A stretch of DNA of 64,000 nt from a virus. Shown one piece after another: positions 3-40,900 of this stretch. Position 1 is the first letter of the stretch. Each line of letters begins with the position of its first letter. The stretch spans positions 1 through 64,000 of IMG/VR virus record IMGVR_UViG_3300030117_006323; one strand, given 5' to 3'. Both the position numbers and the translations under genes were made by a program. Under the pieces are notes generated by a model. It made no database searches and had not been told where the DNA came from. It saw only the letters and a program-made list of their open reading frames with translations.

Positions 3-119
3 TACATCGAGTTCTTGGAAGACAAGTTTGGCAACCATTGGGATGAGTTTGTGCAAGCCGGACTATCGGTACGGGAATCATCTGACGAAGAAGCAAAGCA
101 TTGGGAGGCGAGTGAATGA
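3..119 (+). CDS. C-terminal end of an unidentified protein (cut by window edge)
   Basis: An open frame enters from the left edge and ends at TGA 117-119. The last 38 residues are acidic (they end EAKHWEASE) and look like real coding sequence. Its stop overlaps the ATG of the next gene as ATGA. The final codons carry the sequence GGAGGCGAG, which serves as the ribosome-binding site of the next gene. The same 17-base junction recurs at 17104-17120. Too little is visible to name a family. Confidence 0.6.
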   Translation, partial: YIEFLEDKFGNHWDEFVQAGLSVRESSDEEAKHWEASE

Positions 120-622
120 ACATATTCGTATTAGACAAGCACCCGTCAGCAGCAGCACGTATGCACTGTGACAAGCACGTTCCCAAGATGTGTGTAGAAG
201 CAGCACAGATGATGGCATCAGCCCTGCGCCGACACGGTGCTACTGATGACATTATGCCACTCACCAAAGCAGGTAAGCCCTACAAGGGAGGCTATGCTCA
301 CCATCCATGTACAGTATGGGCTGGTGACAGTCGCGCCAATTTCATGTGGCTCGCTCTACACGCAATCTCTTTGTGTAGCGAATACAGGAAACGCTTCGGT
401 AAGGTCCATGCTTGCTACGAACCTATCGTGTACATGGAAAAGCACTACCTTCTCATAGATGACTCACCTTTGACACCATTCGCGCAGGCCATGCCTGACG
501 AGTATCGTGATGATAATGTGGTCAAGGCATACCGAGCCTACTATCATTCCAAGACATTCGCCAAGTGGGAGAAGGGAACACCTGCTCCTCTTTGGTGGCA
601 AGGCGTGGAGGTGACGGCGTGA
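116..622 (+). CDS. Conserved phage-type protein of unknown function, 168 aa
   Basis: The N-terminus (MNIFVLDKHPSAAARMHCDKHVPKM) with an HCDKHVPKM core, followed by aromatic-rich stretches (HPCTVWAGDS, PAPLWWQ), resembles a short protein family I know from marine phages, usually annotated as hypothetical. I cannot assign a reaction. The conserved Cys, His and Asp near the N-terminus could form a metal or active site, but that is inference. A distant resemblance of the N-terminus to pyrimidine-dimer glycosylases is too weak to use. It overlaps both neighbours by four bases. Its last residues, GVEVTA, are encoded by the first copy of a 21-base repeat that also carries the start site of the next gene. 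Confidence 0.8.
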   Translation: MNIFVLDKHPSAAARMHCDKHVPKMCVEAAQMMASALRRHGATDDIMPLTKAGKPYKGGYAHHPCTVWAGDSRANFMWLALHAISLCSEYRKRFGKVHACYEPIVYMEKHYLLIDDSPLTPFAQAMPDEYRDDNVVKAYRAYYHSKTFAKWEKGTPAPLWWQGVEVTA

Positions 623-729
623 AGGAATTTCCTTTGTCACTACTGTTGTGCAAGGTGGGTAAGTGTGATGGTAAGAATGCTATTGCACCCGAACTCCCCT
701 GTCCTCATTGCGTGGAGGTGACGGCGTGA
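619..729 (+). CDS. Zinc-binding microprotein, 36 aa
   Basis: Starts with GTG at 619, overlapping the previous stop as GTGA, with GGAGGTGA six bases upstream as a strong ribosome-binding site. The 36 residues contain four cysteines in two pairs (CKVGKC and CPHC), as in a small zinc ribbon. It ends in VEVTA, like three other proteins of this cluster. No family is recognised. A nucleic-acid or protein adaptor role is only a guess from the zinc-ribbon-like pattern. The support is the repeated junction architecture and the cysteine spacing, since the length alone would not be convincing. Confidence 0.55.
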   Translation: MKEFPLSLLLCKVGKCDGKNAIAPELPCPHCVEVTA

Positions 730-857
730 AGTGTGAATTGTGCGACGAGCCAATGATGATGACTAAGTTAATTCGTGGCCCTAATCCAGAAAGGGGTTTG
801 GACAAAGGTGAGTGGGCCTGTTCATACAAATGTGAATGCGTGGAGGTGACGGCGTGA
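726..857 (+). CDS. Zinc-binding microprotein, 43 aa
   Basis: GTG start at 726 overlaps the previous stop. Starts MKCELCDEPM and ends with a second cysteine group (ACSYKCECVEVTA), so two CxxC-like knuckles could bind one zinc. The upstream ribosome-binding site GGAGGTGA is part of the second copy of the 21-base repeat (710-730). Function unknown. It belongs to a run of consecutive small proteins built the same way between 619 and 1194. Confidence 0.55.
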   Translation: MKCELCDEPMMMTKLIRGPNPERGLDKGEWACSYKCECVEVTA

Positions 858-1009
858 ACGCATATTCAAAGTGCGAGTGTTTCGGTGATGTGGGAACTCG
901 TATATTCCTCAAGGGATTCGATGAATACAGTGGTCAGTTTGTCCACATAACCCCTTCCTTTTGTCCTTACTGTGGTGAGAGCACGACGTATGGGGAGGTG
1001 AAGTCGTGA
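854..1009 (+). CDS. Zinc-binding microprotein, 51 aa
   Basis: GTG start at 854 inside the third copy of the 21-base repeat. Contains an N-terminal CEC and a C-terminal CPYCGE, a typical zinc-ribbon knuckle. It ends GEVKS, and the junction here (GGGGAGGTGAAGTCGTGA) is a diverged version of the repeat. A 150-residue open frame on the opposite strand (866-1318) crosses several of these genes and is judged to be a shadow. Function unknown. Confidence 0.55.
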   Translation: MNAYSKCECFGDVGTRIFLKGFDEYSGQFVHITPSFCPYCGESTTYGEVKS

Positions 1010-1194
1010 GAAATACAAATAACAGTTGTGAACATGATTTTGAGTTATCATACTACGATGACGTTGATGGCGCATACGTGGTATTTGAGTGTAAGAACTG
1101 CGGTATGGTTGTATCATGTGATGTAGAAAGCCCCTATGAAAATGCAAAGATGGACCGTGGTATTGTGGAAGAAGGCGTGGAGGTGACGGCGTGA
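1006..1194 (+). CDS. Zinc-binding small protein, 62 aa
   Basis: GTG start at 1006 overlaps the previous stop, with GGGGAGGTGA upstream. The sequence has CEHDFELSYYDD, then FECKNCGMVVSC, so a Cys-x(n)-CxxCG zinc ribbon with an acidic patch between. The last residues, GVEVTA, come from the fourth copy of the 21-base repeat. The pattern CKNCGM resembles generic zinc ribbons of transcription-related proteins, but no specific family can be claimed. Confidence 0.65.
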   Translation: MRNTNNSCEHDFELSYYDDVDGAYVVFECKNCGMVVSCDVESPYENAKMDRGIVEEGVEVTA

Positions 1195-1448
1195 AAGCGG
1201 CTACAAGGAGGCAACGCCTGAACAAAGCGTTGACTGAAATGCCTACGGGAATTGAATTCACGGCAGCGGATGTACAGGAAATAATGGCGAAACAATACAA
1301 GCGTGGGGAGTTGTCCACGCGAGCAATCGGATTTCTTCTAGCGAAAACGGATGGTGTGTCAAGAATGCGAAAACGCTCTTGGATAAAATCCGATTCCTTT
1401 AAGAACCAACAACAAAAAAAGAAAATGAACCGAGGTGAAAATATATGA
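1191..1448 (+). CDS. Small basic protein, possible DNA-binding helix-turn-helix, 85 aa
   Basis: GTG start at 1191 overlaps the previous stop as GTGA. The protein is basic and predicted mostly helical (MKAATRRQRLNKALTEMP, then TAADVQEIMAKQYKRGELSTRAIGFLLAKTDGV). The second part, with LSTRAIGFLLAKTDGVSRMRKRSWI, looks like a winged-helix core of the kind that copies host-encoded regulators, but this is a visual impression only. Its last 15 codons overlap the TTTAAG promoter-like motif (1396-1407), so its C-terminus, SFKNQQQ, is shaped by that element. The RFC-like protein at 9876 ends in a similar SFKNHQQ for the same reason. Confidence 0.65.
   Translation: MKAATRRQRLNKALTEMPTGIEFTAADVQEIMAKQYKRGELSTRAIGFLLAKTDGVSRMRKRSWIKSDSFKNQQQKKKMNRGENI
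1396..1412 (+). promoter_or_regulatory. TTTAAG motif, copy A
   Basis: CCTTTAAGAACCAACAACA lies 49 bases before the ATG at 1445. The same core is found at 9846, 10816, 16856 and 20687, each time before a + strand gene. Spacing to the start and the A/T-rich TTTAA core fit an archaeal TATA-type element, but no transcript data are available. A GAGGTGA ribosome-binding site stands between the motif and the ATG. Confidence 0.45.
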
Positions 1449-3079
1449 CCGACGAAAGTAATGTGATTGTGATTGGCAAGGTTGATGATGCAAGTGGTTC
1501 ACGCTTGCTCATTCAATATGAAGCCCAATCGGGGACGCGGCACGAATGGGTGCCTAGAGATGCAGTAAAGAGACAAGAGCCTTTGTCCGATGGAAGGACG
1601 GCTTTTGTTCTGGGGTATGCCGAGACAGAAGCAGGTGAATACGAGCCAGATAGGCAATTCGTAGGGGCCGCTATGCCTATGGTGACCGAAGAGAACGACA
1701 TCATTGTCGTATCTGCGCTTGAGAACGACGAAGAATTGCCAGAATTGGCATTCGATGATAGCCGCCCAGTGTTTACACAGGGAGCGGACCAAGAAATACC
1801 GACTATCATTGCCATTGGTGAAGATGGCGAGGAGTTACCAGAGGATGTATGGGGCGGTGCACTTCTCACAGGAGGGAGGTTTGAGACTGTATGTGATTGG
1901 GATTTCGTGCCCACAGTCCTACCTGCCTATGTACCCGTGCAAGAAGAGTCCAGTGAGACTATGATGCCACGTATGCAACGTGTCAACGACAAGAAAGGAG
2001 AGGCAAATGTATTCCTCGCTTTCAACCCTAACTACCGTAGCGCACGTGAGCCTGCTGGGGCCCACTTGGGTACCTTCAGTAGTCGATACTTCGCTCTTGA
2101 TTACCCCACCGTGGCCCGGCCTCTTCTACAAAGAGCGGCCCAAAATGGTTGGCAAGCGAGTGTTCTTGCTTATGACCGAGGTAAGAAGATGCGAATTGAT
2201 TGTGATGTCATGGGTGCTATGCACGCAGGTGGCGGCGGTGCTGGGAGCCATGCTGATTTGATGCGTAAAGGTTGGACTAGTATGGCTCAATCTGACAGCG
2301 GATGGCTCATGGAAGAGACAATGAAGGATTTGCAGGAGCAAGTACATCGAGTCTGGCGCTATGGATTCAGTATCCACAATAGCCTTGACGGCAATGGCTC
2401 ATTCCGTGTCCAAGCGGTAGCCCGTCGAAATGCTTGCACGAATGCAGGTGTGATTGGTGGGCAACGGACACTCATGAGCATGAGACACACGAAGGGTGTG
2501 ATGGAACCCATTGATTGGGATGATTTCGCTGACACAATTGACGCTGTTATCACTGATGCTCAAAGAGGGTTGGGTCACGTTGAGGCACTCAAGTATATCC
2601 CTCTTGAGGAGCACATGTTTGAACGATTACTTACACTGTGCGAGCGCGCAGGTCTTGTGAGTTGGCCTCGTCAGAGTAAGGATGGGACTTTGCAGGGTAG
2701 CCACATGTGGCATCTATTCGGCCATGGTTGGACGACTCCTTCAGAGTCTTGGGTTCGCGTTGAGGGTGACTCAAAGAAGACACTCTACCATGCTTACCAA
2801 GTGCTGACTGGTGCAATCACTCACAAGCCTGAGTGGCGGACTAAGGGGCGCGTCCTCAAGGGACACACAGTCAATCTAGATACCTTTGACCGACGCTTGG
2901 CTAAGGTGGATGCACTACTCACTGGTTTGGGTGTGGATACCATGCAGAAGTATTCCTCCACTTTAGGACATCCTATCGGATTGACTGATTGGGATGGGCT
3001 ACGTGAATTCGGTGTGCCTGCTCTAGATGATGTGCCTACGGCCACAGAAGTCCTTCGTGTTCTCAATAACGAGGAGTGA
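1445..3079 (+). CDS. DUF932-like protein, 544 aa
   Basis: The central part (about residues 300-345) contains HNSLDGNGSFRVQ followed by RRNACTNAGVI and MRHTKG, the pattern of the DUF932 family of phage and plasmid proteins (Ser/Asp-Gly, then Arg-x-x-C-x-N, then a basic His segment). A later LYHAYQVLTGAITHK also fits the family. The function of DUF932 is unknown. It is often encoded by phages and plasmids next to DNA metabolism genes. The first 180 residues are acidic and not part of the domain. The ATG at 1445 follows a clear GAGGTGA. The N-terminus, MTDESN, matches that of the protein starting at 10866 (MSDESN), and the two upstream regions are also alike. Confidence 0.7.
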   Translation: MTDESNVIVIGKVDDASGSRLLIQYEAQSGTRHEWVPRDAVKRQEPLSDGRTAFVLGYAETEAGEYEPDRQFVGAAMPMVTEENDIIVVSALENDEELPELAFDDSRPVFTQGADQEIPTIIAIGEDGEELPEDVWGGALLTGGRFETVCDWDFVPTVLPAYVPVQEESSETMMPRMQRVNDKKGEANVFLAFNPNYRSAREPAGAHLGTFSSRYFALDYPTVARPLLQRAAQNGWQASVLAYDRGKKMRIDCDVMGAMHAGGGGAGSHADLMRKGWTSMAQSDSGWLMEETMKDLQEQVHRVWRYGFSIHNSLDGNGSFRVQAVARRNACTNAGVIGGQRTLMSMRHTKGVMEPIDWDDFADTIDAVITDAQRGLGHVEALKYIPLEEHMFERLLTLCERAGLVSWPRQSKDGTLQGSHMWHLFGHGWTTPSESWVRVEGDSKKTLYHAYQVLTGAITHKPEWRTKGRVLKGHTVNLDTFDRRLAKVDALLTGLGVDTMQKYSSTLGHPIGLTDWDGLREFGVPALDDVPTATEVLRVLNNEE

Positions 3080-3435: not shown

Positions 3436-6315
3436 ATGGGCGCAAGAAGAAGACCAAAACCGAGGAAAAAGAGGGCCGGTAAGAATAGGAAGTATGCCAA
3501 ATTCAAAGCCATAGAGAGAGCGTTTTACGATACTTTAATCAGGGGTGATTTTGTACCCGTGAGTCCTCTTATACTTGTCCATAATGAGCATCACACTTCT
3601 GAGGAATCGCGAGATTTTGCCCTAAAGTTATGGGCTCCCTTCATTAGATGGACGGAGCAAGAACATGTTCCCGGGGAGTTGTTATTTGGGGCTTGGTATT
3701 TCACTATGTGCCCCGACTTTAATCGCCGGGAAGAGGACTACTTTGCAAATTACATGAAGTACGCAGCGGAAATAGATGAAGCAGGTGAAAAACTTGTTTC
3801 CTTCGTTGAAGATTTTGGGGTTAAAGGCTTAATTTCTATGTGTCGAAGAGTCTTGGATAGGTTTCAAAAAGCGGCCCCTCTAAATGAGTCATTGGTTGCA
3901 TTCGCTTGGACAAGACACGAGGCAGGTCTAATCATCCCTGAATACTTGCTGAACCCAGCAACTGTCAATAGGATTGAAAGTGAGCCTGAATTATGGAGGT
4001 TGGGTAAAAATATTGAACGCTTGACAGTAGATAATTGTGCGTCTGTTTTGCAGAGTCGGTTATTGGAAAGCGCCCAAAACGTCATTGATTACGCAGCGGA
4101 AAATCACCTAGGTATAATTGTAAAATATTACAAACAAAAATTGGCAGATGCAGATGGTATAGATGATTGGGAAAGTGTTAGTCTGAAAGATTACAAAGAC
4201 CCGCCTCGTTTTTATCGAATAATTCCTGATGTAGATATAATCAAAGCAATAGTTGAATCAGGTGTCACACTTAATCCAATAAAAATACACGCTTATGCTA
4301 GCATTTTGACGCAAGGTGAATTCTTGATGGGTAATTTACATCTCCCGGAATATCAATACAATTGGGACGCAATGGGCTTTGATACAGAGGAAATTGAATC
4401 CTTCATAAAAGAAGGAAAGATAAATGAAGTAATGGGTTTGTTATGGGACAAGCACCAAGAGCAAGGTATGCAAGGTCAAATAAATACATCAGTGATGTAC
4501 CCATCGTCATGTAGGTTATCTGTTCCTGCATTTGAATCATTTAAGACATCAGCATTTAAGTTACACATGAGTGATGGAGGTGGTTCCTATAGAGAGAGGT
4601 CACTCGTTGAGGGGGATGTTTTAGACAGATTTTCATATTTCCCCACTCCTGAACAGAGTTCTCAATTCGCTGATTTCGATGAACAAGACATGCGTTGGGC
4701 TCATGCTAATCTCGCTTTACTCGGGCAATCTTATTGGCCTTCTCTCCGTGACTCTATTTTCCGTTTCACCATCGACCAATGCGAGAGAGATATAGACGGG
4801 TGGGATGATTATACTGCTAGAGGGCGCCAGCGAGACATCAACGAAATTATCTTATATTCACTTTATGGGAAGCCCAAGCATCTTTACTTACCGATGCTGA
4901 AGCAGTATTTGAAAGATGCTCAGGCAGTCCGCGAGAACTTATGGAAGAACGGAAAGGGTCCTGATTCCGACACGATACGAAATTATTACAAATCCCTTGA
5001 ACCTAAAGATTGGTTATTTTCAGACGAAATTCATTATTGGTCCACATTCATGAAAGAGGCAGTATATCCAACCATTCCTCAGTCTCTAGTGCCGTTTTTA
5101 TCTGGTAATTTGATACATCGTTGGCCTGATGTGAAGCAAATGTGGTCAGAGGAATACCGTAATCAATATCACATTCCTGAAGGAGGTATTGTACTGCATG
5201 ATAGGTATATAGAAGGAGACCAAATAGAAAGAGGCTATGAGTTAAGTTGGCGTGAAGCCTTTTGTCGTTGTCTCACAGAACAAGCCATGGCGTTCAACCC
5301 TGACATCCACACTAAATTGCGGGAAAATGCCGACATAATGAATGCAGATGGCATGGAGATAGAATACCTCCCTCTATTGGAACGTGGTATAATAACTCAT
5401 CACCTAGGTGAAGCAGAAGACCTGTATCTTTCTTCTCATGCCCCGCACCTAATGGCTTTGTTTGACAGTTTAGATGATGCTGTCAACTTCAAACTTGATT
5501 ATGACACACAAAAAATCATCTTACTCCAAGGGGAAAAGAGGAGCAAAATCAATCCCTTTTTCTTACAATTACCCTTCCCTTCAATCTTCATAGAGACAAG
5601 AATGCCGTTAGTGAACGGTATGCTTCTAGAGGGCATGTTGGTCAGAGAATTGGTCATTCCAGAAGGTTCGTCGGGGGACCCGCATTCAAGTATGTACTTC
5701 AATATCATGACAGGCGAGATTGAGTACATGAGAGATAGTGATTGGCACAGCCTTCAGAATACTATGCCACAACTTGTCCCATTCTGTAGAAGTCAATATC
5801 TTGGTGATAGAATTTGGCTCATGGTAGGTGTCGGGACAAACACGTATGGCGAAAGGGAGATACTGAAATACAGTTGGTGCCCAGACATAGGCGATGGTCT
5901 GCATCAAAGATTCCCAAGAAAAAGAGGCAATGAACGAGCAAGAGTGGCGAGACAGATGTTAGATTTACTCACAAGCATGGTGCTTTTCATTCAAATGTCA
6001 GGCGTGACTTACGTTGAGAGGAAACCCAGAGAGATTGACCAAGAAAAGCGGAAAAAGAGAGGCTTGCGTCCATTATCTTCATCCAATGTAATCGTCCTAA
6101 CGGGGGAAATGAAGCGATACGCTAATGACCTAAAGGCCGCTGCCTCTGGTGGGGGCAAACTGAGACTCCGGCACTCTGTTATCAAACATCCACGTTTGCT
6201 TATGAGTGATAGATACAAGAAATCAGGACTTCAAGGTACGACTATATTTGTGGATGCACATGAAAGAGGTGGGAGTCGAATTAAAGCACAGAAGGATTAT
6301 GAGGTGAAGAAATGA
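3436..6315 (+). CDS. Large uncharacterised protein, 959 aa
   Basis: The N-terminus is strongly basic (GARRRPKPRKKRAGKNRKYAK, in short runs). The bulk is rich in Tyr, Trp and acidic residues, with no P-loop or nuclease motif that I can identify. The last 100 residues have the shape R-H-x-V..., then SDRYKK..., then a VDAHERGG ending. This recalls a C-terminal motif (an R-G-H-x-R segment, then W-V-x-P-H-x-R-G) seen in many phage and plasmid proteins of unknown role. Base composition is more A/T-rich than in the flanking replication genes, with long stretches of AAT, ATT and AAA codons. It starts straight after the TAG of the previous gene and overlaps the next by ATGA. Confidence 0.75.
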   Translation: MGARRRPKPRKKRAGKNRKYAKFKAIERAFYDTLIRGDFVPVSPLILVHNEHHTSEESRDFALKLWAPFIRWTEQEHVPGELLFGAWYFTMCPDFNRREEDYFANYMKYAAEIDEAGEKLVSFVEDFGVKGLISMCRRVLDRFQKAAPLNESLVAFAWTRHEAGLIIPEYLLNPATVNRIESEPELWRLGKNIERLTVDNCASVLQSRLLESAQNVIDYAAENHLGIIVKYYKQKLADADGIDDWESVSLKDYKDPPRFYRIIPDVDIIKAIVESGVTLNPIKIHAYASILTQGEFLMGNLHLPEYQYNWDAMGFDTEEIESFIKEGKINEVMGLLWDKHQEQGMQGQINTSVMYPSSCRLSVPAFESFKTSAFKLHMSDGGGSYRERSLVEGDVLDRFSYFPTPEQSSQFADFDEQDMRWAHANLALLGQSYWPSLRDSIFRFTIDQCERDIDGWDDYTARGRQRDINEIILYSLYGKPKHLYLPMLKQYLKDAQAVRENLWKNGKGPDSDTIRNYYKSLEPKDWLFSDEIHYWSTFMKEAVYPTIPQSLVPFLSGNLIHRWPDVKQMWSEEYRNQYHIPEGGIVLHDRYIEGDQIERGYELSWREAFCRCLTEQAMAFNPDIHTKLRENADIMNADGMEIEYLPLLERGIITHHLGEAEDLYLSSHAPHLMALFDSLDDAVNFKLDYDTQKIILLQGEKRSKINPFFLQLPFPSIFIETRMPLVNGMLLEGMLVRELVIPEGSSGDPHSSMYFNIMTGEIEYMRDSDWHSLQNTMPQLVPFCRSQYLGDRIWLMVGVGTNTYGEREILKYSWCPDIGDGLHQRFPRKRGNERARVARQMLDLLTSMVLFIQMSGVTYVERKPREIDQEKRKKRGLRPLSSSNVIVLTGEMKRYANDLKAAASGGGKLRLRHSVIKHPRLLMSDRYKKSGLQGTTIFVDAHERGGSRIKAQKDYEVKK

Positions 6316-12161: not shown

Positions 12162-12356
12162 ATGAGTGCGTTAGAAGATGCAGTGTGTGCCAAAATCAAG
12201 GCACGTGCCGACCGAGGGTGGCATAAGTACGGCAAATCAATGGAGCGCCGTGACTTGTCATTCATGGAATGGCTTGTACATCTGCAAGAGGAACTCATGG
12301 ATGCCACAGTTTACGTTGAGAAACTGATGACCATAGCAGAGGAGGAAGAAGTATGA
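12162..12356 (+). CDS. MazG-like nucleotide pyrophosphohydrolase fragment-sized protein, 64 aa
   Basis: The sequence RADRGWHKYGKSMERRDLS followed by EWLVHLQEELMDATVYVEKL matches the core of phage MazG-like proteins, which hydrolyse NTPs or dNTPs. The EE-x-x-DA-x-x-Y helix carries the metal-binding acidic residues. At 64 residues it is shorter than most members and may need to dimerise or use only one helix pair. ATG 12162 follows GAGGTGATTAC. It overlaps the next gene by ATGA and would be expected to act on the nucleotide pool during replication. Confidence 0.65.
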   Translation: MSALEDAVCAKIKARADRGWHKYGKSMERRDLSFMEWLVHLQEELMDATVYVEKLMTIAEEEEV

Positions 12357-13342
12357 GTGGATTCGGAGCAAAGAAGGGAGCCGTAGTGGCTAAGAAAAAG
12401 GAGGAGCAAGCGCAGGCTGAGAAGTCTGTGATGATGAAAGAAGCAGGCGCGAAGCCCTCCAACACATTTGAGAATCTTGAACAAGAGTTGGCGTTGCTCG
12501 CTGACCACGGCCCTAAGAGTCACATTTTCTGTGGTGTCGTGGGGCATGAGAACACAACCAAGACAGGCACAGTCATGGATGCTTTCATGACAGGTATCGG
12601 TCAGGACAGTGAGAACATGTTATGGGTGCTTGACTTCGATGGTGGTGCGGCGGCATGTCGTGCTGCTCATTGGGGCAACACACCTCAAGTCAGATGTTGG
12701 GACCCATACGTCATGCAGACAGATGACAGAACTGCCTATGACTATCCCGGCACGCACCAACGTGTCATGGATATTGGCCAGTTCGCTGTACAGCAATCTG
12801 TCAAGCAGATGCAACCGGGGTACACAGGCCCTCGACTCACATACTTCATGGTCACCAGCGTTGACTCATGGGACAGCGTCTGTGTGAACAATATGAAGAT
12901 TACAGATATGGGTATCGCTAAGGACGGTATCGAAGCGAGTGACCCTACCAAGACAGTGGGTAACCAATGGAACTGGAGCATCAGGACTACTCGATTCCAT
13001 CAACTCACAGCACTGTGCCGCAGACTTGTGGCTAATGGTGTGGCTGTGTTCTGGGAAACTCACATCAAGCCAGAGGTATTCCGCGACCAAGAAACTGGTG
13101 GTTGGAAACCTGACTGGGAAAAACACACAAGCAATTACTTGAACCAGATTCTCTGGTTCCGCAAGAAGAAAGTACGGGAGGCTGATGGCAGTCCCACAGG
13201 TGAGACACATTACACTGTGGAATTCCATAAGTGCAAGACGAACCCTACGCTGCAAGGGCAGGAAAGGGTCATCTTCAGCACAGCCAAAGGGCGTGAGCCT
13301 ATTTGGAATGGCCTCCCAGAACTACGGGAGGGCGTAATGTGA
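12353..13342 (+). CDS. RecA-fold ATPase (RadA/Sak4/AAA_24-like), 329 aa
   Basis: A Lys/Ala-rich leader (about 30 residues) precedes an ATPase core. GVVGHENTTKTGTV sits where Walker A is expected, but the usual Gly before Lys is Thr (G-H-E-N-T-T-K-T). MLWVLDFDGGAA follows, as in phage AAA_24/Sak4-type recombination ATPases. TYFMVTSVDSWD fits a Walker B strand. A later WNWSIRTTRFHQL and VFWETHIKP are typical of the sensor and DNA-loop region in that group. Role is likely recombination or strand annealing during replication. Exact subfamily is uncertain. It is followed by the non-coding repeat region at 13343. Confidence 0.7.
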   Translation: MSGFGAKKGAVVAKKKEEQAQAEKSVMMKEAGAKPSNTFENLEQELALLADHGPKSHIFCGVVGHENTTKTGTVMDAFMTGIGQDSENMLWVLDFDGGAAACRAAHWGNTPQVRCWDPYVMQTDDRTAYDYPGTHQRVMDIGQFAVQQSVKQMQPGYTGPRLTYFMVTSVDSWDSVCVNNMKITDMGIAKDGIEASDPTKTVGNQWNWSIRTTRFHQLTALCRRLVANGVAVFWETHIKPEVFRDQETGGWKPDWEKHTSNYLNQILWFRKKKVREADGSPTGETHYTVEFHKCKTNPTLQGQERVIFSTAKGREPIWNGLPELREGVM

Positions 13343-16885: not shown

Positions 16886-17119
16886 ATGATGAAAGATAAA
16901 GACGATATTGTTCAGGACGTTAGCCCATGGGGTGGTACGTTCAAGGCAAAAGAACCTAACCCATTGACCTGTAATTCGTGGGAGAAGGCATTCTGCTTAG
17001 AGCAGAGATTAGATACAGACCCAGAGAGCATGCTTACCGCAGACCCAAACATATTGCAATGCCCACTCTGTGGATTCACGATACCACTTGAACCTGTAGA
17101 AGAGGAGGCGAGTGAATGA
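16886..17119 (+). CDS. Small cysteine-containing protein, 77 aa
   Basis: Starts at ATG 16886 with AGGTGA upstream. The frame is also open further back into the polymerase gene, but that extension lacks a ribosome-binding site and would overlap polB. Acidic, with C-terminal NILQCPLCGFTIPLEP, a C-x-x-CG zinc knuckle, and two more cysteines upstream (CNSWEKAFC). Ends EEEASE, whose codons hold the ribosome-binding site of the next gene (same junction as at 104-120). Function unknown. Confidence 0.65.
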   Translation: MMKDKDDIVQDVSPWGGTFKAKEPNPLTCNSWEKAFCLEQRLDTDPESMLTADPNILQCPLCGFTIPLEPVEEEASE

Positions 17120-28930: not shown

Positions 28931-31900
28931 TCACTCTCCGCTGTGGTCTCCTGTGTTATAAGATGCAGTCCCTTCTTCACCCTTAGCGTGTAGAGTTTGG
29001 CTGTGTCTAGGTTGAACACTGTAATCTCTACGTGTGATGCTAGAACCATCGGCATCTGTCGAGTAGAATCGTCGCCGTGGAGCGTCACTACGGAAATGCT
29101 CTAGTGTGTTTTCTGTGATAAGAATACGCGCTACTGTTTTGTCAAGAGCCACGCTGTAACCACTCACATCAGCACCGGGGATATTGGGGCCACTCGATAG
29201 ACTGAGAGTTGGGGCAGCCGAATCAATTGTGTAAGATGGTGAATAGGGTGGGCTGACTGGTGTAACAGTACCTGTGCGAGCATTCGGCATATCATAATTG
29301 AACAGACCGTATTTACCACCAGATGTTGAACGATAAGCATCATTCCCATCTTGGGGTGTGCTACTCTTTGTGACAGAATCAGCCCGGAATATTTCTACGT
29401 GTCTGTTGTCTAACACTCGGCTTGGCCTCAATAGGAATCTCACCGTCTTGTCAAAGTAATTCATCTGTGTCCCAGATACCGCATTGTGTGTACCTGCTGT
29501 GCTACTTACTACAGGTCCATCTTGATACGGGTTAGAAGGATTCCATGATTTGAATGTGGATGTGCTGCCAATGCCGTATTTTGAAGCAAGATATGCTTCG
29601 ACTTGTTCAATTTCAGTTGTGGATAGAGCGCGATTGTATTGAATGATTTCAGCCATATCGCCATTCAATTGATATGACGATGTAGCATTCGTTCCTAATT
29701 GCGATGCATCTGCTGTAGATTTGTAGAAGTTGGCGCTTTGTGTACCAACTTGTACGCCATCTACTCTGAATAATTGTGTAGCAGATGCGCCAGCCCCATT
29801 TCCTCCACTCACTTGACCGACTAGTATGGAAGGTACTCCGCTAGTAGAAGCACTGTCACCACTTGCCGACAATGCCTTCCAAGAAGAGTCAGCGCCCACC
29901 CAGAATTCCCAATTGTTATTGCCGCCAGTATTTCTCATATCAGCGTAGAAGTTGAAGCCAGAGCGAGTAACTGGACTACTACTTCGGCTGTCAATAATTG
30001 CTTCAATGGCGTCAGTGTCGGAACTTACGGCTGTAACAATGAAAACAGTGAATTCGTTAGTATTCAAACCAGCGTCAAAGTTGAGTGCGAGTTTATCTGA
30101 ACCGTCGAAATTGACTACAGGCTTGCTGTTGAAATCTGAATCAGATGCTACATACGAAGGTTGTAAACTGCTAGTTGATTGTGTGAAGTGTCTTGAATTG
30201 CCGGACAAATCGTCCCATTGTGTCACCGCTGCTCCGCCAGCCAAATCGAGAGAATCAGATTTTAGCCACAATGCCAAGCCACTCAACGGCATTTGTTGCC
30301 CCCAACCTGAGTCATCGAATGGTTGAGCGTAGTTACGAACTTCCAACACATACGTTCCACCCAGTGGCCACATAGCATGCGCGTTGGATAAACGGACAAC
30401 CGCAGCATCTGGCTGTGTAGCCCATGTAGGAGTGGTGAGGTCGAAGTGAGTCAATGTTGTACTACCTGCATTGAATGCTCCTCTTAGCGAGAGTCGTTGC
30501 CCGACCTCCTTGTCTGTGTGTAGGCTATGTGCTTGCGTGGACATGGCGATATGGTCAGTTTCTTGGCCACCCGAAATCGCTTCAATAGTTTCAACATCCA
30601 AACCAATACGAGGGGCGCTTCTAGACATTGGGTCAGCCAATGTGACACCGCCAATAGTGAATGTACCTGAGACAGTTTCGACCTTTTCGCTAACGTTTGC
30701 TTCCGGCTTGAGTAAACCATCTTGGGCTACACCTAATCTAGCGCTGATACCTCTAGGTATTTCTGTTGATGCAGGTGCCGAATTAGCAGGTCTGAGATAA
30801 CCAGTAGTGAAGGGAGGTTCGGCTGTGCTATGTGATAGAACTAGACCTGCTGGTAGTAAATCTTCAGAGATGTCATGCAACAAACTCTCATTGAATACAG
30901 TTGGCCAACGCATGCCCCGGCCATCACCACGGTCTCCAATACGTTGCGCTCTCTTTGGATTGAACCAATCAACCCGGGTCATATCTGAATTGTTAGTTGA
31001 ATTGGTTGTTCCTTCTTGCTCTGTTTTGTAAGAAGCGCCGTCATCATGCCATAAGTCAGTTGCACTTGGTTTGAGATTAGCATAGGCGTCGTCGGTGTAT
31101 GCTTCTTCTGGGTCCCAAGCCGGACGAATTCCGAACCCACGTGCAGGGAATCTACGGACATCTTCACCGCGAGTGTTACCCCACCAATCGACAAGATAGA
31201 ATCTGTGGGCTTCTGCAATTTCATCAATGCCTAGTCCAGAATCATCGCCGGGATATTTTTTGCGGACAGTAGATGCATTTCTGACTGTTCTAGTAGGACA
31301 ACCGAAAGGTCGTGTCATACGCCTACCGTGACTGTATCTCACTTGACGCATTGTCTGGTCATTACCAAGCATAGCGGTGGCTTGTGTTTGCCTTTCTAAG
31401 ATGCCAGCGTTAGTGGCATTCCAAACGATGTCCGCAGCCCCACTTAAGCCAGCGTCTGCGTTTTCTTTCCAACCACCCGAAGCCTGAGTCCGGCTGTCTT
31501 GAGCGACAAACGGGCCATGGGAGTATCCTGTCATATTGTACTCGGCTGAAGAACTGTGCCCGCCTGTGAAAGAGGTGTGTGTTGTGTTGTCCAATGTTGA
31601 TACAATGACAGTATTACCCGCAGAACCAGCGACATTTTGAGTGAACGTCAGAGTGCCAGCCCCATCATCAGCGACTAAGATTTTGCCATTATGACCAGAT
31701 GCATGTTCAACAGCGCCCTTCAGAGAAGTAGCATTTGCGGCAGCGCCTCCATTGGCGTCGAATTGATTTGAAGCAAACGCCGCTGTGTTTTTGGCTGTGT
31801 ATGTTTTGGTCGTCCCGTCTGTTGAGATGAGGATGATTGTTCTGTCTGTAGTCGGGTCACCTGTGAATGTGATACTGGCTGTTGCCGCTGTCTCTTCTAC

Positions 31901-34900
31901 TTCATCTATGCCACGAATACCGGGTGACCAACGAGGTCGATTAAAAGGCGGACGGACGGCGAATCTATAACCAAAGCAATATTGACGGTCATGCTCTAAA
32001 GTGGATAGCAAAGTGTGTGTGCCTGAGAATTGTGTGACAGTAGTGTTGGCCAAGTTAGACACTATCAAAGATTGATTCTTTACTTCTGAAGGAGTATCCG
32101 TCAAAGTCAATACACCCGAGGCTCTTGTTACATCAATCTCGCCGTTGTGCCCAGAAGCGTGCTTAATTGCCAATAACAATGATTCGGCGACATCAGCATT
32201 GGTGTTATCAACACTAAACTGATTCGATGTTATCGTGGCGCTACCTGATACCGCAGTGTATGTTTTGGTTGTTTTCGCTGCTGACGTAATTACAATTGTG
32301 TTACCAGCACTAGGTTTACTGGCTCCTATGTTAATCGAAGCGAGTAGCAACTGGTCAATACCTCCAGTCGATGTATCATACGAATATGGAGTACATTCCA
32401 TCCCGTAATCATTGTCACCCCAACCTGCCTTGATGTACCCATAGCCATCTAATCTGCTACCAGCAGGGCCACCACGACTACCACCGGGCCAGAACCCAAC
32501 GTATTGCCTTGAGCCATCTCCTTGGTGGTTAGTCAAATCACTAGCATTTTGTGCGGTACCATCGCTTGCAGGTGCTTGTCCTTTCATATCAAACGAGAAT
32601 GGCCCCTTACTGATACTGTAAAGGAAATCGTGATAATGGATTGTCTCAAAATGTTCTGGGATGTGATTGAGCCCTTTCTTATCTTGCGGTGTATCAGCGG
32701 CCCCTGTGTTCGTGTAGAAGGTGCGTCCTGTGTCACTGTAGAAAGTGTAAGGACGGCCTAAATTTGGATGCCAGAGGCACAAGAAAGCATCTGCTTGATG
32801 CAAACTGTTAGTGTCTCTGCTACCGTGGTATGTTTGGGGTAGAACACGAGTAATAGCACTGGTTGTAGATGCTTGGAAAATTGAACCTGCCGGAGTAGTA
32901 TCGTAAGGCCGTGAAAGACGTAGGATTTCGGCTGCCGCCAATTTAGTCCAAAACGCAGGAGTCACAGCAATGACATTCTCAAATTTAGTCGGACCTACTT
33001 CCAATGAATGGCTTTTCGTGCCAGTTCGATGTGTGTAAGTAGCCGTTTGTCGGGACCCTTCGTTGTCAATGTATTCTAGAACTTCCCCATAGAAGGAATC
33101 TACTGGGAATAATTCGTTATTATCTACGGTGATAGTTCGGTTTGTCGAACTCAAAGACAGTACAACACAATGTGGGTTTAGGCTACGGGCACGGAAATGG
33201 TTTTCGTAGATGTCAGGATAAATTGAGGGATAGCCCGCCAATGTAATTTGACATCCGACAGCCCCGTAAGTTGCTCTACAAAATTGATAATAGTCATCTG
33301 GCTTATGCCATTCATTGAACACATAACCAGACGCTATACTACTAGTCGGTTTGGAACGATGGAGAATAGCCCACCATGGCACAGTAAGAGTGTAACCGGG
33401 AGTTGCTCTTTCAAATGTTCCCGGTCGATAAGGCAAACTCCGCCTACTGAATGGTGGAGAAGTATTTTCGTTGACTCCAATTGGATTATACAGACCTAAT
33501 GTAGGGATGTTTGTGAATTGACTGCCGGGGTCAGGGTCTAAATCTAGCATGACCTCATTGATGAAAATTTCACATCCTCGCGTATCTGCCATTGTTGCTT
33601 CTGCCAACAACAAACCAACAGCCCCTGTCGAACCCGCTGCATCATGCTCTAATCCGATGACCAAATTGACTTGTTGCCCGGTCAACTCAACAGCCGAACC
33701 ATCAGGTAAAGCAGTAGCCGCTCCATTTCGATGGAATCCGCTAAATTGTTGTTTGTGCAAATTAGGCTGTATGATAATTTGGTAGGCTCCGACTTCAATG
33801 GGGTCAGGGAAATGTGGTTTGAGACTGTAAGTCCCAGCCGCTTCTAGATAGATAATGTGTTTACCAGCCGCATTGGCAGTACCTGCTGCTCCTTTAGAGG
33901 CAGCAATGCCGTATCCATCATAAGCAACTTTTGTCTCTGTGAGTAAGGTAAACGCACCACCGTGAATATCACTTGGGCGCAAAGCACTGCTTGGAGTGGA
34001 GAACCAAACCAGTGGGTCTCTTACAGGTATGTTTGTAATGGCCAATGAAGTATCATCATCAATTGCTGTTTTGCTTGAAGAGCGGCAACCATAGTGGAGA
34101 TTGAATGCTCTCTCATAAGCAGGGTGGGAGAAATGTCCGGGCATAACCATCATACTTGGAGTGACATAATGATGGCCCATGCGGGGAATAGGCATTGGTG
34201 TAAGTTTTGGTTTAGTCAGAAGAGTCACTGGATTAGTCTCTGTCCAATCTAATCGTTTAGCGTCAGGGCTGTTTCCTGAAATTTCACTGTGGTCACGTAA
34301 ACGTCGAGCAGCGAAAAACCGATTAGAGCCCGCTGGAATATACCACGAAGGTTTGATGACTAAGCCTGTTTTACCGCTGATGAAGGTACTGAAATCTGGG
34401 TCGAAAACTACACCTGTGAAATTAGCACTTGAAATATTGGTGTATGAAAATAAAGCACCTTGACCTGTAGCATCTTCTACTCTAGCGAACCATCTACCAT
34501 CAGCCGTTTTCTCGCTGTCAATTTTCCAAACAGCCGCATTTGGAGATGAGCCCGCTGTAACCGTGTTAGTTCCACTGGAAGAGAAGGTTAGTGGGTCGGA
34601 TACAATAGAGCCAGAAGAAATTGCAGTAGGATTTCTACTTGAGCCAGTATGCCCCATCTTGGTAACATGGAAGAACAAAGTGCGGTCATGTTGTTCATAC
34701 GCAGTTTCTAATGGGTTACCATCAGTATGGTCATCCCAACCTTTGCTGTGTTGGTCAGGGAAAGCCAGTCTTGTTTCACCTGCTGTTAAAGAAGAGTCGT
34801 CAGCATCTTGGGAAATATGTTCCCAACCTTTGTTTTCCCAAGTAGGCCATCCTCTCGGTCCTTTAGCCGAATCCGTGAAAGTATCTGTAATACCTTGGAC

Positions 34901-37900
34901 GGGTTGAGCAGGATGCATCATGCCTCCACTGCCTAGAGTTTCATTTTGGTAAGACTGGATTCGGTCAAACCCACTACGAACAATGATGTTACCCGGTATT
35001 GTATCGGGGTCAGGCAAACGAATTCGCATGTTGGGTGCTAAACCACTGTTAGCCAATGTCGGTGAAAGCCCTTCTGAAGAACGGTCGCTGACTAATTCAA
35101 AATCACGGATAATTGTACCAAACGGAGACCCTCCTTCAATCACATGAATTTGACCTGTGTCGTCCATTACTTCTACACTTTCAAATTGAGTTTCTTCATT
35201 TGGAATAGTCAATACATTTTGCAACTCACTACCTACGGGTTGCTCTGCCAATTGAGGATGTGACAATTCTTGGGCTTGAATGATTGGGAACATGGCACTG
35301 TTAGTTGATTCAAAGGAGAAGCGGCAATTGCCGTAAATGGTTTCACCCATTGTGTAAGCATTGACACCCGACACTCTCGTAGTGAAAGGTACTGCTCCAA
35401 GCCCACGAGCATTGCAAGCAGGCATAGTAAGATTTCCACCATCCATACGTTTCCATACAATGTGCTCAATCGTGAAGTTACGGGCCGGAGAGCGAGCCGC
35501 CCAATAATTCCAAGGCTCCAAATCATCAGGCGGAGTGGCTGTTGTCCCTGATACATTACAATTTACAGAGAGGCTGTTTTTATCTGCATGTAAGCGATTA
35601 CTGTAAACGCTGCTTTCATCCCAAAATAAATCGCCTGTCGGTACTGCACAAGATGTCAATAACGACATCTGGCTCGCTGCTGTGACACGACTGTGCCAAT
35701 GTGATTCAGTACCTACGTTATTGTAACTAGCCGTGTTGGTGGGTTGTGTTTGCCCTGTGACAATTTGTGCCTCTACGTTAGGACCGGCGTTAGCAGGGGC
35801 CACATAACGGTCTAGGTTGAATACTTGGTCTGCCACTGCAATAGTACCACCAAACTCTTGAGTGTTCGATACACCACTCTTCACTTGTGCTGCATATAAC
35901 CAATCGCCTACACCCTTGGTACCATCTCTATCTGCTTTAGCAATCAACGCCAACTCTGATTCATACGTGACAGCCACTAAATGGCGAGGCGAAAGTCCTT
36001 GTGGGCAAACTGAATTGTATGTGTAATTCATAGTGCCTGATTCTCTGGATACAGGGATGACCGAACCTTGGCAAGTCGATGAAGCACCGTAAGGCGAGAA
36101 GCCCAAATATGGATGCCATGCACCCAAACCGGCTGCGTAAACCGCAGTAGATGCATCATCAGGATTTCTGAGGTCTAAACTGTTGAGGTAAGAATATCGT
36201 TCTCCGTGCCAACCGATTGCTCCGACCGCGCGAGTTCGGTCAATTGCATCCATCAATCCATTGAAATGAACTTGGCACATGTGATTTTGACTATTTGCTC
36301 CACTATTGGTTCTACCATTGTTGAAAATATGGGCACCTGCTTTTGTCCAAATGTAAACAGTTGCCTCAGCCTTAACCGCATTTACAGTAGAAGCAGTTGC
36401 TGCTGTGGCAGTATCTACAACACTTTCCTCCAGTTGTTTTGTGCCACCACGATTAACATCCAATGTCACTTGGAGATGGCCGGGGTTAGGCACAGTCATA
36501 GTATGGTACGGGGCATAAACAGCAGTAGCGCCTACACTATACGAAGCGACTCTTGCGGCACCGGAGCCATTGTCATTGCCACCTATTCCTACTCTCAACC
36601 AACCATAACGAGGTAATGGGGGTAAATCTGCTCCGTATGGATTCAGAAGGTTCAATCTGTAATTTGTCCCACTACCTCCAATCTGTTCATAGAAATCTGG
36701 GTTCCCACCTTCGCCAGCCATTTCCATTGCTGTGAATGCCTGCCAACCATAACGGTCTTGTTTGTGCCCTGTTTGGAAAGATGGTAAAAACGTACCACCG
36801 ATTGCTTTCAATGGGTCTCGGCCCGGCCATTCGTTGATTGAACAAGATAGAACAGCGGCCAACTCTTCTGCATTTTGTACTCTTGTGGCGTCTACAATGA
36901 CGAACTCTTCGGTAGAGTATGCACTTGTTGCACCATAGGAAGCAGCCAACAAACCGCTTACACGGAATGCACTAGGGTGTGATTTTGCAGTTCCATTGTG
37001 TGTCACTGTCCCGCTGTCTTTGTAATGAGGTGCATTGATGAGTACGTGTCTATCAAGGAAATGCCCACCGGGATGATACCCTCCATCCATGTGCCAGATA
37101 AAACCTGCATGCCGTAGTGAACTACCGATTAAAGAAGTGGGAGCGTAATCAAATGGGTGGGCGTATGGTGGCGGTGCATAACTGCCACTAGTGAAATGAG
37201 AACCGTAATACAATCCATCGTAAGGAGTTTGGTCGTATCCATGCACTGAAGCAGCAGACCGAACATTCGGTTTTCCTTGTGCAGGTTCCCAATTGTCAAC
37301 ATAATTCCAACCTTTTGCATTTCCAATTTGGAAATTAGCAGAAGGAGGTGTCAAAGTACCACCGCTGTGACGCCCATTAACATCACCGCTGGTCAAAGTG
37401 TTTGGTGTGAATTCACCAGCAGCACCTGACAATGTCTTAACTGTGTCTTTGCCTAAATTTGGTTGAATTGCTGCATTGTTGTGAGGGAAGGCTTGACCGG
37501 GGCCGAACACAATGTAAGTTGTTTTTCCACTGCTAGATGCATCGTGGCTGTACCTAGAATGAGAATGTGCAAATCTTAGAATCACAGGGCTGGGTATTGT
37601 GACCTTTGTGATATTGGCTCCTGCCCCGTATCCGTAATCAGAGTCCGAAGCCATGCCTGTTGTACCTGTTCTTGAGTTGTTACCCGCATCTAAATCGGGA
37701 GACAGAATACCATCTTGATTGTAGAAAGGTGGATTGTTTTCACCCTTGTGGTTATCGAGATAAGGTGTCCCGGGGAACATAGCCAACATGGCCGCACAAT
37801 CTACCAAACAATAGGAAGTAGATTTCTCCCCGATATTTTGTAGCCCCGCGCTACCTGTCGGCCCCTCTGAATACGGATGAGTGTAGAAATCACTGTAATC

Positions 37901-40900
37901 ATTCTGTGTGCCGTCATTGACATCCATAACTACACCACTGAATCCACCACCGAAATAGACAGGGACGCTGTGGTCAGGGCTATCTCGCCCGCCCCTGAAG
38001 TAAACTAGAGGTTCACCGTATGAATTACCGGACCTTCTTATCCCATCGAATGCAATTGTATCTGCAACAGAGCCGTAAGTCGAAATGACACAATCGTTGT
38101 TTGCGGTTTCAAAGGCTTCAATATTCGCCTCAAAGTTATCAGATACAGCACCACCTGTTGCGCGTGATTTCCACATTAGGAATAATTCCGGGTCTGTGGC
38201 ATTTCGTGTACTTTCAGCAATAACCCAATCCTTATCGTTTAGCCAATATCTACGGCGCTCACCCCAAGAATCAGCATTAGCGGAAGCAGGAATAGCCATG
38301 TGCCAAAGATAACCTGTGCCACTGGCTGCTCCAACTTTGATTGTCCGTGGATTAGAACTGGTATCAATTGTCGTAGAATCGCCGTCAATCAGTGCAGTTC
38401 GATTTTCAATCATAGGCAAGATGTAATCTCCGGGCTTGTCCACATAACGTGCTCCTCGTAGATTCTGCCTCCATGTGGTCACATCAACAGCATTGTTCAT
38501 CGTATCGACTAAAATGGGTGTGGCTGTATTCGCGTTGGTTCCTCTCGATTTGGTACGGAGGTGTAATACTGTCTCAGGTAAATACCCACATGCAGTACGC
38601 TCACCGGCTGTCAATTGATTAACTGACATAATTGCAGCATTTGTGCTACCACTGATACCCCAGTCTTTGGATAGTGAAGATTCAAACAAACAACGCAGTG
38701 GTGTAATATCGTGGTTTTGGCTATGTGCGCGCACACGGATGGCACCCGCATCCACGCCCCACTCACCGAGTGTGCGACCATCTGCTGCTCTCATATTGGT
38801 ACAATCAAATGTTGTGGCACTATCAGAATTAGGGTCATCCATATTGATAGCGAAATTAACAGCCGCTGCTATGACCTCATCTGTAAGTAATGTGGTCCAC
38901 CCAATCCGAGGGCTGATAATCAAACCACTATCACCGTTCGGTAAAGCAGTATTCCCGGTTACACCGTAGAACTTGTGTGTCCCACTTTTACTACTATGAG
39001 TACGACCTGTGTAAGAAAACGTCAATCCAGTTTCCGCTGCTGTTCCGGGTTTACTGGTTTGGAAAACACCGGCATCGGGGAATCCTAGATAGCCCAAAAT
39101 ATCATCGTGGCTGTGGGTGCCACCACTATGATATGGGTCTGGTAATTCGATTGTCACTGTTGTTCCGCTAACACTGACGTTATCAATTTCAATTCCTACA
39201 TTCGGGCAAGGGAATGGTTGCCATTTGTTCCCAACCCAAGTCGCAGTGCCTACCATAGACTCTGTTTCCAACAATCGCCCTGTGGCTTCTCCAATGCCCC
39301 ACATGTGTTTCCCGATTGTGAATCCACCTGACCCACAATCACGGTCATCGAACCAAATACACACTTCTTGGTCGATTGTAGGAGGTAGTGTACTGTTGTC
39401 GTAGGAGAAAGATTCGCCGAATTCAGAATAAATAAAGCGCAATGTGTGGGCTCGCCCAAGATGGTCAGTCAAACGAAGACCATACAATTGATTGCCAATA
39501 GCATCATCTTGTATTTCAGCAGAAGGAACATGTCCTTTCTCCACACCTGTATCATCAGGTGTAGTGTAATCTACTTCTGTCAAAGTGCCATTTTTACCAT
39601 AAGCATGTAAGTATCGAGTATTACCTTCTTTGCCCATGCCCCAAGGTCCTGCTCTAGGGCTAAACCCGGGCACACCAGAAGCAACTAAACCACCAAAATT
39701 GATGCGTGCTTGGGCTCTAGTTCCTAGCCGTAACCCTTGTGTCAACACAGAATCCGGGCTTTGGCTTTCATAGGAATCTTGGTAAACAGTGTTCTTGGAA
39801 TAACCACTAACACCCATGTTGTTCGCATTGGTGATAGCCGCATCTGTTTTTGAGCCATAATTCAGATTGTTCATGAATACATCTTCTGGCTCTTCTGGAG
39901 GTAGATATTCATTGAGAGTTGTAATCGGAGCAAAGGGCCTGCCATCTTTGTTGATAGGCATAGGTGCTGGATGCATATTTTCCATTAACACTTCATCCGG
40001 TCGGCACCAGAAATTACGGAATCGGCCACCATGTCCAATCAAGAATTTCGGTCGATAGGTACTCTGACCTTTGGAATTGTCTAACCATAGGCAGAAATTG
40101 CGCCCACTAGCACCGGGGACTGTACTATGGATGACAATGCTGAACCCTTCGTTTCCGTTTCCTTCAGCATCTTCTACTACACGGCCTAAGTGAGCACGCA
40201 CATAACCCATGTGTGACCCTCTATCGTGACTAGCAAATGCTTTGTCGATGTCCCAAAATGGAGCAGGGTCGTGTGTGCTACCCGTAGGAGAGAAATCGGC
40301 AGACAAGTGGGGTGCACTTGCATCAATCAAAGAGGGCTTGATGTTATCTCTCGGACCTTGAAGCACTTTGGAATGGCCGCCATCTTGGAAGATGCCGACT
40401 TTTTCTAAGCCCAATCGAGCGCTTTCACTTGGGTATTGGTTGGCAGGTCGGCGTGCATGAGTCCTCCCTTTAGGTGCTCCCGCTTGATTGATTAGACGGA
40501 CGACTTCTTGAGCCGCCGCTTGGATGTCCGTCACACCTTCCTTCACGCCAACTTCACCGAGGTCGATGGTCAGTCTTCGGACAAAATCCATTTGTGTCCA
40601 GTGGGATAGATGTTGCAAACGTGCCTCTTTGTGTGAGGTCAAATCTAGTGTTTCAGTTCTCTTGCCTTTGAGGCACAAGAATGCAGGTATAGCACGAGTC
40701 CCCTCCGGTGTATCAAAGAATGTGGCGTATTCTGCTTCGACTGCTTCACCAAGTGCTTGGAAGTGCCGATGTTTGAGAACAGCACTAGATGGACAACATG
40801 TCTCTTCATGTGTCCTAGGGGGTGAGCCGTCACCTACACAACCCCCTGCTTGAGGATGGTGGCCGTGGTCACCGTGTGCTTCAGTAGCAGCCCGATAATT

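Follow-up and report, generated by a model that had tools for sequence, protein, structure and literature searches.

A tandem array of single-gene cassettes sharing one translational junction, probably exchanged by recombination, in a virus resembling the magroviruses

A row of short genes near the beginning of a viral genome record is divided by a repeated DNA junction that unites a Shine-Dalgarno sequence, a stop codon and a start codon, and it is highly probable that this row represents an integrase-free array with one gene per cassette, whose cassettes are exchanged by recombination through the junction. The junctions, the cassettes shared between arrays, the changed neighbours of these cassettes, the positions at which identity breaks off and the horizontal spread are all shown by the sequences. 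The stretch of DNA analysed, hereafter the window, comprises the first 64,000 bases of the 91,170-base record IMGVR_UViG_3300030117_006323.

The first-pass annotation of the window had described four identical 21-base units holding a ribosome-binding site, a stop and a start, separated by genes of 36-62 codons with cysteine pairs, and both observations were confirmed, since four exact copies are present and the genes between the units have 36, 43, 51 and 62 codons, followed by an 85-codon gene after the last unit (Table 1). A search allowing up to three mismatches returned no additional copy of the 21-mer, and 100 dinucleotide shuffles returned zero. A fifth, diverged copy retains the GGAGGTGA core, the 4-base length of the spacer and the GTGA. 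In the whole 91,170-base record there are five GGAGGTGANNNNGTGA sites, all of them in the array, and no match to the reversed control pattern. The unit is composed of the Shine-Dalgarno sequence GGAGGTGA, the final codons GTG GAG GTG ACG GCG TGA and a GTG start overlapping this stop; the junction thereby encodes the end of the upstream protein, usually ...VEVTA followed by the stop, and its GTGA corresponds to the stop/start overlap. A different stop/start junction, the exact 16-base GGAGGCGAGTGAATGA, precedes the anchor gene and recurs 17 kb away ahead of a small gene, against an expectation of 0.06.

Table 1. Features of the array and its surroundings, in positions of the window
Feature	Position	Strand	Remarks
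Second-type junction GGAGGCGAGTGAATGA, precedes the anchor gene	104..119	+	Recurs exactly at 17104-17119
Anchor gene, 168 aa, PF03013 / phrog_624, C-terminus ...WWQGVEVTA	116..622	+	Library scans
Junction 1, exact 21-mer	603..623	+	
Cassette 1, 36 aa, cysteine pairs	619..729	+	Without relative in the array set
Junction 2, exact	710..730	+	
Cassette 2, 43 aa, cysteine pairs	726..857	+	Without relative in the array set
Junction 3, exact	838..858	+	
Cassette 3, 51 aa	854..1009	+	Body DNA 82% identical to cassette 1 of L179/L035
Junction 4, diverged	990..1009 (core 994-1009)	+	
Cassette 4, 62 aa	1006..1194	+	Body DNA 86% identical to cassette 1 of L150/L020
Junction 5, exact	1175..1195	+	
85-aa gene after the last junction	1191..1448	+	Distant relative in L234, 51% DNA identity
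DUF932 protein, 3' of the array	1445..3079	+	

The 16-base core was found clustered in further viral contigs, and the 20-mer was present in 45 stretches. Of 50 records, 39 had the motif, for the most part in a single cluster, and none matched the reversed control. Merging of the loci reduced at least 96 raw clusters to at least 52 distinct arrays with at least 177 junctions, and the removal of three arrays whose upstream genes were of another kind (L039, L059 and L120) left at least 49 arrays with at least 162 junction-started genes. At least 35 arrays start at one anchor gene family, PF03013/phrog_624. The array counts are lower bounds drawn from partial public virus collections, and they exclude as background the single 16-mer matches in other contigs and nine of the ten genome-contig stretches that carry the 20-mer. 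The remaining stretch is a cluster of six junctions in a 9.3-kb contig of a Maricaulis bin (L147/L236). The anchor of this contig shares 96% identity with the anchor of virus contig L178, and the binned contig is probably a mis-binned virus fragment. Two separate arrays were observed in each of two virus records, namely L239 (about 1988-2573 and 5090-5665) and, on the reverse strand, L058 (1586-2240 and 5555-5821). Related viruses also display another repeated start junction, GGAGGAATGAAYATG, whose proteins begin MNM (L182 at 2388, 7124, 7460 and 7794; L181 at 1971, 3044 and 3453; L162 at 2115, 2243 and 2338), and another junction word, AGGAGGAATGAAYATG, showed mostly single occurrences among the matches listed. 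The DUF932 protein, used as a query, yielded no relatives.

A second sample was built on the anchor protein, independently of the junction; 80 of 148 loci were kept, and 55 were examined. The junction was found at the end of the anchor in 32 of the 37 loci with an anchor identity of at least 64%, versus 0 of 18 at 44-62%. Some junction-free anchors of this latter range terminate in ...PSWW, which suggests that the GVEVTA tail is the trace, in the protein-coding sequence, of a junction gained by the anchor. Among 28 non-duplicate junction-bearing loci, a count that omits the near-duplicates L157, L168, L172 and L176, 26 different genes occupied the first place behind the same upstream gene; the locus-by-locus gene comparison skipped 17 loci, made up of near-duplicates and 11 distant junction-free ones. 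The first-pass annotation had held that its cassette proposal would fall if all relatives kept the same genes in the same order while the repeats drifted, and the opposite was seen, with gene order identical in no two of the 49 arrays.

Clustering revealed 38 families of junction-started genes that recur between arrays. When same-family cassettes in different arrays were compared, each side being counted where it carried a junction, the left neighbour was unlike in 98 of 107 pairs and the right one in 63 of 64; 23 families contributed 56 pairs to the two-sided comparison, and in 49 of these both neighbours were unlike. The pairs share members and are not independent, and the arrays were partly gathered by junction search. 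A 34-aa cassette, for instance, is 100% identical at the DNA level between L173 and L180, while its flanks are 29% and 16% identical (random left flanks average 30%), and a 64-aa cassette maintains 97-99% DNA identity across L158, L173 and L179. As for the window, relatives in other arrays and other contexts were found for three of the five genes that start at its junctions. The cassette reading of the first-pass annotation is thus supported, in that the microgenes recur beside unrelated neighbours and, as described below, their identity stops at the junction edges.

Two other origins of this pattern were considered. A series of tandem duplications, in which one microgene was copied together with its junction and the copies diverged in place, would account for the tandem repetition of the junction and for the similar size of the genes, but it is hardly credible, given that the genes within one array belong to different families and that those families recur in other arrays at other positions. 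The relatives are all metagenome assemblies with a repeated word, which could have favoured assembly chimeras at the short repeat, or false gene calls. However, most cassettes common to several arrays have diverged by some percent, with identities often of 80-98% and not 100%, which is not expected from chimeras, and near-identical arrays were found in contigs of different IMG/VR samples (L171/L172 and L175/L176). Moreover, the mismatches were concentrated at third codon positions (409 versus 110 and 90), with a third-position excess in 22 of 25 families, and therefore the cassette genes code; an artefact of either kind is extremely improbable.

The positions at which the identity of shared cassettes ends coincided with the junction. 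For the 37 left breaks (range 16-25) the mode was 20 nt, counted outward from the start, and for the 28 right breaks (range 11-26) it was 19 nt; both values correspond to the junction edge. Within the junction, positions -16 to -13 tracked the upstream gene, an association reached by 0 of 200 permutations versus 97 of 200 for the downstream gene, and the start codon tracked the downstream gene (1 of 200, versus 103 of 200 for the upstream gene), which places the exchange between them. Since the core is invariant by the definition of the junction, the exchange point is assigned to the core or its vicinity, without base resolution. In cassettes placed last in an array the tail can differ, as in the changes from KEVTA to KEMKE and from LWEVTA to LWEAKE, which makes it improbable that this terminal peptide is of importance. 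It had been proposed in the first-pass annotation that a new small gene can be inserted between two copies by homologous recombination; the break positions do lie at the junction, and from them we infer the recombination itself.

Breaks at gene edges are also predicted by selection for intact genes. According to an explanation by selection only, illegitimate recombination would occur anywhere, the intact and well-translated products would survive, and the junction would be the best ribosome-binding and coupling signal for the host. The core is indeed a strong Shine-Dalgarno sequence, gene content varies also where the junction is absent, and selection is the main alternative for phage mosaicism in the available text of PMC3233612. 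Against it, the upstream GCGT and the CGGC spacer, though dispensable for Shine-Dalgarno pairing, were conserved at 82-91% and 87-98%, respectively, among 129 junctions, and starts outside the array regions had mixed spacers, with CGGC in 7 of 35 (most of the seven in further clusters) versus 96 of 141 inside. This conservation beyond the Shine-Dalgarno sequence points to maintenance of the unit as a whole, whether through recombination, regulation or both, and selection only is considered unlikely.

The same conservation would be expected of a regulatory element, in which the repeat would act as a translational operator placing the accessory genes under one control, an explanation that is compatible with exchange at the repeat. 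A precedent exists in the SAS and ESAS elements described in Cluster K mycobacteriophages and some Microbacterium phages (PMC3203893, PMC7302621). In the accessible portions of these papers, the SAS resemble the junction in being short, asymmetric repeats in one orientation at the starts of non-structural genes, in including the Shine-Dalgarno sequence with conservation beyond it, in sometimes including the stop of the upstream gene and in accompanying genes of different families. By the same portions, their consensus is GGGATAGGAGCCC, whereas the junction repeat is another sequence; about half of the SAS genes add an inverted-repeat element (the ESAS), of which none was seen at the junction; SAS sites are scattered over the right half of the genome, whereas the junctions bound one compact row whose genes are exchangeable; and a role in translation, not in exchange, is proposed for them. 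In the record of the window, however, the motif is confined to the array and does not stand ahead of core genes, and no RNA structure was common to the five junctions, although a protein-binding site would still be compatible. A regulatory element is therefore regarded as rather unlikely.

Recombination through the junction remains the preferred reading, and the question of which machinery would perform it was approached by family searches. In integrons, single-gene cassettes follow one another behind a fixed head gene and share one boundary element, a form that the present array resembles, and a dedicated integrase acting on the junction could be imagined on this ground. Nevertheless, an integron needs a tyrosine recombinase integrase, and neither PF00589 nor PF00239, the tyrosine and serine recombinases, was found in any of 25 records, some of which may be partial, with positive search controls. 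Furthermore, integron cassettes each carry an attC hairpin, whereas the five junctions, folded as RNA, had no common structure, and the boundary here is a translational joint. Site-specific recombination of the integron kind is accordingly very improbable. A diversity-generating retroelement was also rejected: the 85-aa gene is weakly Avd-like (E 0.0026), but the reverse transcriptase family PF00078 was present in 0 of 8 records. Rad52 and Rad51 families were not found in the 25 records, and a PD-(D/E)XK exonuclease-like protein was present. As no recombinase or reverse transcriptase family was found, homologous or microhomology-driven exchange is favoured. The minimal pairing segment reported for Red-beta is 23-27 bp in the available part of PMC3945230; the 20-base unit falls a little short of this, an argument against an efficient reaction and not against a rare, selected one. 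Downstream of the arrays, genes without the junction vary as well, so gene turnover can occur without it.

The arrangement would operate as follows. A fixed anchor gene is followed by short genes, each bounded by the joint GCGT-GGAGGTGA-CGGC-[G/A]TGA of about 20 bases, which would couple neighbours translationally, with the Shine-Dalgarno sequence inside the upstream gene and its stop overlapping the next start. Owing to such coupling, a gene bearing the junction could be added, lost or replaced with expression intact. Co-infecting viruses would swap cassettes, or direct repeats would delete them, via recombination through the junction, most likely at a point in or near the GGAGGTGA core, and the exchange would be homologous or microhomology-driven, carried out by host enzymes or by viral enzymes that escaped recognition.

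Cassettes spread horizontally. Of 69 comparisons, 56 gave a higher DNA identity for the cassette than for the anchor, 39 of them with a margin above 0.1; in 5 of the 69 the anchor was the more similar by a margin above 0.1. L178 and L236, despite the 96% identity of their anchors, have no cassette in common, and their homology ends at the junction. Between L175 and either L166 or L178 the anchor gene is similar and the DNA on both its sides is dissimilar, so the anchor gene too may move.

Concerning the cargo, cassettes had a median length of 53 codons, with 153 of 162 not exceeding 120 codons. The scan of 92 genes against Pfam matched eight families, the firm matches being DNA methyltransferases (PF00145 twice, PF01555 and PF02086). 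In L175 (6543-8197), two C5 DNA methyltransferase genes occupy successive cassettes, and both have an exact junction. The genes of the window had been called zinc microproteins; their cysteine pairs are present, but library scans gave no confident zinc-family match for the four genes. A special zinc enrichment of cassettes was not significant, with at least two cysteine pairs in 33 of 91 small cassette types versus 17 of 65 neighbouring small genes (p=0.22). In view of this and of the DNA methyltransferases among the cassettes, the label is too narrow. The cargo would comprise accessory host-takeover or anti-defence (anti-restriction) genes. A 118-aa gene of L149 has the main junction fused ahead of an apparent relic of another start region, and its relative stands behind GGAGGAATGAAYATG in L182, an example that may represent gene capture from outside.

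The window encodes on its + strand a PolB (PF00136, 14458-16854), a clamp-loader-like AAA protein, TFIIB and a Cpn60 chaperonin, and on the - strand the structural genes; genes lie on the + strand up to about 25 kb and mostly on the - strand thereafter. All 11 records of the phage collection that matched the capsid protein are archaeal viruses, the best being HVTV/HCTV at about 34% identity, which we take to be Druskaviridae. Magrovirales are described as viruses of 90-110 kb with a PolB replisome, archaeal-type factors and oppositely transcribed replication and morphogenesis modules (PMC12999244, in its available text). The record agrees with this partial text in its 91 kb, its PolB, its opposed replication and morphogenesis halves, the lack of a detected integrase and a capsid protein related to those of tailed haloviruses; an array such as that of the record is not mentioned there. 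Judged by its sequence, the record fits the ICTV description of a magrovirus, that is, a tailed virus of Poseidoniales archaea. Its structural region contains, on the - strand (28931-45976), a single open frame of 5,681 aa. The replication region encodes a conserved 329-aa protein (12353-13342) without a Pfam or PHROG family match, a possible ATPase. A motif in it that we presumed to be P-loop-like had raised the suspicion of a RecA-like ATPase, which was abandoned, as there was neither a Pfam or PHROG match nor a significant PDB sequence match; the predicted model was poor (pLDDT 46.5), and its fold matches, methyltransferases at 11-21 A rmsd, were discarded.

Mobile regulatory cassettes of T4-type phages, which Arbiol et al. 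are said to have described in 2010, reportedly place repeated promoter and stem-loop elements at the borders of shuffled small-gene modules; those elements would be intergenic, whereas the junction is embedded in coding sequence and its copies have no stem-loop in common. In one of two models of phage mosaicism (PMC3233612), short conserved sequences at gene boundaries serve for homologous recombination. As far as the available text of that paper goes, the model shares with the junction a short conserved gene-boundary sequence where module breaks fall, and differs in that here one sequence is repeated within a genome, which makes single genes interchangeable whatever their position, and the junction doubles as the stop, Shine-Dalgarno and start joint. 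No description of an array of this kind was found in the openly licensed literature, and a term search of the accessible text of a magrovirus survey (PMC10160649) returned none of the terms cassette, repeat, recombination and hypervariable. Targeted exchange at boundary sequences was proposed earlier, and to our knowledge no tandem array built on a single shared translational seam has been described.

It may be, and we propose this tentatively and with somewhat less than even confidence, that the junction is a dedicated exchange seam, kept uniform across many magroviruses because it enables the trade of single genes from a common pool; the array would then be an integrase-free, recombination-based counterpart of the integron, with the ribosome-binding, stop and start signal as its recombination site. 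It is a long-standing question whether mosaicism of the phage type arises through targeted homology or through breaks made at random and then sifted by selection, and a 20-base seam repeated within single genomes and across many viruses, with about 100 gene types around it, makes both models quantitatively testable. The junction is also a searchable DNA word for the accessory gene pool, nearly all unannotated, of one group of marine archaeal viruses, and it suggests a simple rule by which viruses may add genes to an operon and leave the operon unbroken.
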